From positions 5,534,391-5,598,390 of the forward strand of contig NC_092657.1 in the NCBI RefSeq assembly GCF_032118995.1: a stretch of 64,000 bases of DNA. The letters run 5' to 3'. Source of the stretch: Asterias amurensis. Its lineage: Eukaryota > Echinodermata > Asteroidea > Forcipulatida > Asteriidae. Shown one piece after another: positions 10,811-30,907 of this stretch. Each line of letters begins with the position of its first letter. Positions within the stretch are counted from its first letter, which is position 1. Both the position numbers and the translations under genes were made by a program. Below the pieces are notes generated by a model. That model did no database searches. It was not told where the DNA came from and worked only from the letters and a program-made list of their open reading frames with translations.

Positions 10811-11796
10811 GTACCTATGTAAATGGTGATATCAGACTGACGGGTCATGGCGAGGCCCGTCACTATGGCAGGGTTGAGGTGTTTATGGAAGGCCAATGGG
10901 GCTTGGTGTGCAGAGATAGATGGGACCTCGCCGATACCGATGTCTTATGCAGGTCAGTAATGGGTTTTTGCGGGTTTTGCAGCAGAGGTTCTGCAAGCGT
11001 GCGGATACAGATACAGATACGGATAATATCCGTAGCTACATGTATCCATATTATTATGATAACCGTATCCGTTCACGTTCACGACAAGCATGACGATAGA
11101 GACCCCGCCTTTTATATATACACTGCATTTTCTCATCGTTTTGCTTGCAAATGCCTAACAATTTTCTATATATATCAAGCACGATACCAGTAAAAGCAAT
11201 TCTGTTGGAAATGTTCTTGCGATTAATTATTTGAATTTCGCGGTGAATTAGTCCAGAAATAGCGATTGGATAGTGAATATTTTCATCCCGGTCTCATCCC
11301 TTGGTTGGCCCTCTCCTTGCCAATATCTTACGAATATATTACGATATGTTATTATTATTTATCATTATTATTATATTACGAATTCTTACCAGCGCTTGCC
11401 AATGCATTTACAAACGGTTTACATCTCGCTTCAATCTTAATAGGAGACTTTTGGGACTCTTGGTGGCAGCAGATATACCAGGTAAAATCCATCGTTCTCG
11501 GTAATGTGCGCATGCTCAGAGCTACGTAAACAATGGAAATTTATTTGGTAGGTCTGCTGCCACCTAGCGTTTCAAAGTCCCCCATTGTTTCATACACAGA
11601 CAACTCGGATACCCGGCTGCCCTAGCGTTCTTCGTACCGGATATTTTACCAGAGAGCTCGAACCTAGAGTTCCTACTCAGTGATTTCAACTGCAACGGCG
11701 ATGAGCAAAGCCTTCTCGAATGTGACCACTCAGGACTTGACGACTGGATTTTCTGCTTCAGATTCGACGTGACTGGAGTTATATGCGATGCACCAG
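10811..11796 (+). CDS. SRCR domain 1 (two exons) of the SRCR-LRR-7TM gene
   Basis: Exons 10811-10952 and 11600-11796 splice within an Arg codon (AG|A) right after the second conserved Cys (DVLCR|QLGYP). All six group A cysteines are present: QWGLVC, DVLC, FNC, LLEC, FC and GVIC. The 197-base second exon starts about 15 bases after a foldback element (11443-11585), so its polypyrimidine/acceptor region directly abuts a mobile element. Confidence 0.88.

Positions 11797-30907: not shown

Follow-up and report, generated by a model that had tools for sequence, protein, structure and literature searches.

A predicted SRCR-LRR-7TM receptor gene of Asterias amurensis whose SRCR domains appear to have lost the scavenging site

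RXFP1 carries one N-terminal LDLa module, which helps to activate its 7TM, and CD163/M130 and DMBT1/SALSA are single-pass or secreted proteins. GRL101 of Lymnaea has six LRRs, and Veenstra gives one GRL101 ortholog per ambulacrarian species (both from excerpts of PMC8286064), while a GRL101-like protein of the crown-of-thorns starfish has been proposed to be chemosensory (excerpt of PMC6267866). The invertebrate SRCR combinations named in the excerpted text of a review are those with immunoglobulin, collagen, LDL receptor and fibronectin, and GPCRs are not among them there (PMC7308585). The initial annotation of the DNA studied here stated that it knew of no described SRCR-LRR-7TM receptor, and none was found among the titles and abstract openings listed by searches of an open-access literature library.

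We rebuilt an SRCR-LRR-7TM gene on the plus strand of Asterias amurensis at positions 10811-30907 of the window, the whole stretch of 64,000 nt that was analysed, by placing exons according to a three-frame reading and splice sites. All 24 exons are open (24/24), and the spliced model encodes 1552 aa with 0 internal stops. The exon junctions are phase-compatible in 23 of 23 cases, and the splice sites are usable throughout, with a single GC donor (SRCR6b) instead of GT. The gene encodes, in this order, nine SRCR units (15 exons), an LRR cap, six LRRs in exons of 72-75 nt, a hinge with TM1, and the rest of the 7TM. The SRCR units are in phase 1-1, the cap in 1-2, the LRRs in 2-2 and the hinge and TM1 exon in 2-1, and the last exon runs to the stop at 30907. 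SRCR4, 7 and 8 are single-exon units; the other six are internally split, in phase 2 in SRCR1, 2, 6 and 9 and in phase 1 in SRCR3 and 5. The exons, preceded by the first exon of the NCBI model (protein P0112), are as follows.

9866..9888, +, NCBI model exon 1 (MGAALLL..., GC donor), P0112 N-terminus; continues at 10776
10811..10952, +, SRCR1a, phase 1-2; the NCBI model opens the same exon at 10776
11600..11796, +, SRCR1b, phase 2-1
12638..12773, +, SRCR2a, phase 1-2
13451..13653, +, SRCR2b, phase 2-1
14302..14466, +, SRCR3a, phase 1-1
15773..15943, +, SRCR3b, phase 1-1
16462..16788, +, SRCR4, one exon, phase 1-1
17068..17301, +, SRCR5a, phase 1-1
17919..18020, +, SRCR5b, phase 1-1; found also in P0112
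19920..20106, +, SRCR6a, phase 1-2
20821..20966, +, SRCR6b, phase 2-1, GC donor; found also in P0112
21957..22265, +, SRCR7, one exon, phase 1-1
22980..23306, +, SRCR8, one exon; degenerate, 4 cysteines not 6
23578..23725, +, SRCR9a, phase 1-2
24123..24316, +, SRCR9b, phase 2-1; phase-1 join to the LRR cap exon
25388..25466, +, LRR N-terminal cap, phase 1-2
25755..25829, +, LRR1, phase 2-2
26192..26263, +, LRR2, phase 2-2
26992..27063, +, LRR3, phase 2-2
27558..27629, +, LRR4, phase 2-2
28390..28461, +, LRR5, phase 2-2
28684..28755, +, LRR6, phase 2-2
29283..29494, +, hinge (CC...C...C) and TM1, phase 2-1
29961..30907, +, TM2-TM7 and tail to stop; motifs DRL, CWMP, NPILY

The initial annotation had described nine SRCR units, a cap, six LRRs and an LGR-type 7TM on one strand, and the rebuilt model has all of them where it had placed them. 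Its splice phases were correct, and its coordinates (10811, 24123-24316, 24317-25387, 29961 and 30907) agree with the rebuilt model. Two stretches on the plus strand within introns were judged by eye: SRCR2b-like stretches (GYPV.LVYGQ...) at 12911-13254 in the SRCR2 intron, and an ORF resembling the end of a LINE-type reverse transcriptase at 18064-18771 in the intron between SRCR5b and SRCR6a.

The NCBI protein P0112 (1572 aa), which represents 6 clustered sequences, corresponds to the rebuilt model with 20 additional N-terminal residues and is identical to it over 1552 residues. Its database name, 'scavenger receptor cysteine-rich type 1 protein M130-like [Asterias amurensis]', conceals a GPCR. 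Pfam assigned to P0112 SRCR in 9 stretches (659.7 bits, E 3.9e-203), LRR_8 (E 2.5e-27) and 7tm_1 (E 2e-24), and chance domain matches were rejected on these E values. A truncated SRCR5 was likewise rejected, as its tail exon was located at 17919-18020. Six cysteines, the number in group A SRCR domains (group B has eight), are present in 8 of the 9 domains, and four in SRCR8. It is doubtful that the P0112 N-terminus is a signal peptide. No convincing signal-peptide exon was found in the 20.8 kb upstream of SRCR1; the candidates at 9987, at 6377 and at ~7.4 kb before the window were rejected as too weak. A tblastn search of the same 20.8 kb with eight proteins (E<=0.05) gave one match, the N-terminus of P0112 itself, and no additional upstream modules. 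LDLa and CUB had no match on the plus strand of the window between 1 and 30907, nor over the 10 kb that precede the window.

The named top matches of the 7TM were echinoderm GRL101-like proteins, and by sequence comparison the 7TM is a member of an expanded echinoderm GRL101-like (LGR type C-related) class A GPCR family. Since no LDLa or CUB was found, the gene represents a variant of this family and not a typical GRL101; 'GRL101-like' is used here in the sense of the NCBI label, which covers the expanded family with its dozens of loci in this genome, and we do not claim that the gene is the ortholog of GRL101 itself. When the genome (23 contigs, 491,506,623 bases) was searched with the 7TM exon, 58 matches were obtained and were merged by eye into 46 loci. 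This count takes in partial and distant loci and leaves out three rows as stray pieces (C10:16922739, C4:27736314 and C10:19034671). CUB/LDLa exons were present on the same strand <=45 kb upstream in at least 23 of the 46 loci (best 150 candidates per list), and since modules were counted up to this distance, some of them may belong to other genes. A profile scan of the 10 kb upstream of 15 of the 45 other loci recovered, as controls, all 15 SRCR exons of the SRCR-LRR-7TM gene and the LDLa/CUB exons of a relative within the window. The scan added 3 further CUB/LDLa loci, whereas no module of any sort was found in 7 of the 15 loci and SRCR was found in none of them (0/15). In total, CUB/LDLa occurred upstream in at least 26 of the 46 loci and SRCR was seen in 1/46, the present gene; the genome SRCR search scored the best 150 of 454 candidates, so that more SRCR-bearing loci are possible. 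The SRCR domains stand where many paralogs carry LDLa, as had been proposed, and also CUB, which the initial annotation had not named.

The relative within the window is a second GRL101-like receptor gene at 40497-55054 on the minus strand, convergent with the SRCR-LRR-7TM gene, with LDLa, CUB, LRR and 7TM exons. It is the counterpart of the GRL101-like P0155 of Asterias rubens; of the 16 aligned segments, 14 are 85-100% identical. An uninterrupted class A GPCR ORF (33450-34388, minus; 7tm_1 E 1.4e-30) lies between this gene and the SRCR-LRR-7TM gene. The window also contains a trinucleotide tract of ~600 bases at 46863-47546, whose frames read poly-L, poly-I and poly-N, and a Rieske-type motif (CPHLGANLG...CPFHGW) at 59868-60410 on the plus strand, perhaps of a Neverland/DAF-36-like oxygenase.

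Among proteins, P0112 was the only one that combined SRCR with 7tm_1 in the best 120 of 130 relatives from a search with hinge-7TM of the full-length model (targets 0.55-1.75 times its length). SRCR was absent from all 111 relatives listed by a 7TM search at shorter length. A search with the part from SRCR7 to the hinge, in which scoring was restricted to the 7952 candidates with most words in common, again gave SRCR plus 7tm_1 in P0112 only, among the best 120 of 1421; P0338 of Patiria, described below, was also among these 120. No named Asterias rubens ortholog was among the matches listed, and proteins of ~552-853 aa fall outside the range of both 7TM searches.

The 7TM retains the motifs DRL, with the Arg kept, CWMP and NPILY. 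In the paralogs, NPYLY was found in 29/29 and CWMP in 24/29, and DRF, ERF or DRY in 10/29 where the pattern was read. The hinge cysteines (CC...C...C) resemble those of the relatives, and together with the six LRR exons they make up an LRR ectodomain with hinge. An intron between TM1 and TM2 was found in the SRCR-LRR-7TM gene alone of 30 loci, whereas hinge, TM1 and the rest of the 7TM lie in one frame in 29. Both trees placed the 7TM among echinoderm receptors on a long branch (1.44 and 1.84), its placement within them being unsure. In the first tree it adjoined P0201, possibly through long-branch attraction. After five rows were dropped it adjoined brittle-star receptors (Amphiura), with an SH-aLRT of only 83, and no longer P0201. 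The Amphiura neighbours with full-length models have CUB in all cases and LDLa too in two.

For SALSA SRCR8, the cation residues in the excerpted text of Reichhardt and others (PMC7043408) are D1023 and D1026 at the buried site 1, D1019, D1020 and E1086 at site 2, and D1020, D1058, D1059 and N1081 at site 3, and disruption of site 2 alone abolished ligand binding in SALSA/DMBT1. We set these residue numbers by motif onto a DMBT1-like landmark domain, a placing of our own, and aligned the SRCR domains of 119 proteins (P0232-P0350) and of P0112 to one profile, in which the key columns were read. The 1943 SRCR stretches included the landmark and P0112; after removal of those gapped at any key column, among them SRCR8 of P0112, the background comprised 1837 domains. 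The echinoderm subset comprised 339 domains of 21 proteins picked by name, P0338 included. The background was taken from the best SRCR matches and not at random, so that canonical domains may be over-represented, and domains of the same protein are non-independent, but the contrast was large nonetheless: site 2 consisted entirely of D/E/N/Q in 0/8 domains of P0112 compared with 1419/1837 in the background and 265/339 in echinoderms, and matched DDE exactly in 0/8 compared with 1310/1837 and 237/339. A regex version with 902 background domains pointed in the same direction (762 with D/E/N/Q throughout site 2, against 0/8). Site 3 was entirely D/E/N/Q in one of the eight, SRCR9, compared with 1302/1837, whereas the DD of site 1, buried and structural, was kept in 7/8 compared with 1040/1837. 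Among the 120 proteins in which five or more domains were scored, site 2 was missing throughout in just two, P0112 and P0264, and such loss is therefore rare but not unique. Judged from this alignment and from the cysteines, the SRCR-LRR-7TM protein keeps the SRCR fold and has lost the scavenging site.

Since none of the eight scorable domains has site 2, a generic scavenger or pattern-recognition role is not the best reading. A pattern-recognition GPCR, with an SRCR array for microbial or polyanionic ligands whose binding is signalled through the 7TM, is in our view rather unlikely. Such binding has a parallel in ApSRCR1, a secreted SRCR protein of the starfish Asterina pectinifera that mediates bacterial binding (excerpt of PMC7308585), and the site-3 acidic residues are kept in SRCR9, where all four positions are D, so that a cation might still be bound there; the loss of site 2, whose disruption was sufficient to abolish binding in SALSA/DMBT1, argues against it. 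From the sequence, a private, probably protein, ligand appears likelier than broad microbe binding, and CD6, an SRCR protein with a protein ligand and a lost calcium dependence, provides a precedent (excerpt of PMC7043408). Of the interpretation given in the initial annotation, the single LGR/GRL101-type SRCR-LRR-7TM receptor stood, the NCBI model joining SRCR9 to the cap, and the coupling of microbe or glycan recognition to G-protein signalling was weakened.

That gene prediction fused a separate SRCR gene with an adjacent gene for a GRL101-like receptor is improbable. Gene fusions are a common annotation error, the joined model is a prediction, and no signal peptide was found for the joined gene in the 20.8 kb upstream. 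SRCR9b is joined to the LRR cap in the NCBI prediction as well, which may itself be computed, and phase agreement between the two exons would by itself occur by chance in one case in three. The gap of 1071 bp between them, however, contained on scanning neither an ATG exon combining a hydrophobic start with a phase-1 GT donor nor any AATAAA or ATTAAA, the latter absence being mildly informative only. Read-through past SRCR9b (ORF 24016-24372) ends within 20 residues without a TM segment, and the receptor half alone would be without the type of module seen upstream of 26 of the 46 relatives. The spacing is also similar in the relative within the window, whose last LDLa and cap alignments are 0.97 kb apart.

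Very improbable, and compatible with a single gene, is a decaying one, an isolated, fast-evolving paralog heading to loss, for which the long 7TM branch, the four cysteines of SRCR8, DRL where paralogs have DRF, ERF or DRY, the intron after TM1 and what may be relic SRCR2b-like copies speak, whereas the 24 open exons with usable splice sites, the core 7TM motifs and the six cysteines in the remaining SRCR domains speak against it.

We favour, at a probability of about 0.72, one gene for an echinoderm GRL101-like class A GPCR in which nine SRCR domains replace the LDLa/CUB array and which serves as a receptor for a specific ligand. Such a gene may have originated when modules of phase 1-1 were exchanged or inserted ahead of the cap exon, whose entry phase is 1. 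The usual Ca2+ chelation would play no part in binding: the SRCR array and the LRR solenoid would together recognise a specific extracellular ligand, probably a protein or glycoprotein, on surfaces of the SRCR domains, the LRRs or both. Ligand binding would then shift the cysteine hinge and the 7TM and activate a G protein, by analogy with RXFP1. These results suggest that the bodies of echinoderm LGR-type GPCRs can exchange their entire recognition head, in this case for a scavenger-receptor array, and that the known binding chemistry of the array has been lost, which makes it a testable case of immune-type modules becoming signalling receptors.

The SRCR-LRR-7TM protein shares with GRL101 (LGR type C2) the LRRs, the cysteine hinge, the class A 7TM and a module array N-terminal of the LRRs, and its hinge-7TM part is 40-43% identical to P0155 (Asterias rubens), P0114 (Patiria) and P0123 (Acanthaster). 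It differs in its modules, which in the GRL101-like relatives are LDLa and CUB and also C-type lectin (P0226) and HYR (P0113), only SRCR being present here, and in the TM1-TM2 intron that the 29 other loci lack. RXFP1 (PDB 7tmw) was the best PDB match bearing a 7TM (best stretch 1082-1364, whole-protein E 1.1e-47); the likeness is limited to the LRR solenoid, hinge and 7TM, and RXFP1 has no SRCR. CD163/M130, the top PDB match, and DMBT1/SALSA share the tandem SRCR domains but have no GPCR part, and their cation sites are conserved (excerpt of PMC7043408). An SRCR array on a seven-pass receptor is also present in P0338 of Patiria miniata (2555 aa, named DMBT1-like), which has 14 SRCR domains, HYR, GPS and 7tm_2. 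Site 2 is kept in only 3 of its 13 scored SRCR domains, which may align poorly since site 1 is kept in only 1/13. In contrast to the present receptor, P0338 is an adhesion-type GPCR with GPS, in which no LRR was found, and represents an independent join of SRCR and GPCR under a scavenger name. It is possible, though we hold this tentatively and at less than even odds, that the Asterias gene provides the first example of an SRCR ectodomain on a class A GPCR, in which phase 1-1 SRCR domains were plugged in before a phase-1 cap and then lost the metal-dependent scavenging site, leaving a private G-protein sensor to which P0338 would be an independent parallel. If so, this parallel suggests that SRCR domains on seven-pass receptors repeatedly abandon scavenging.
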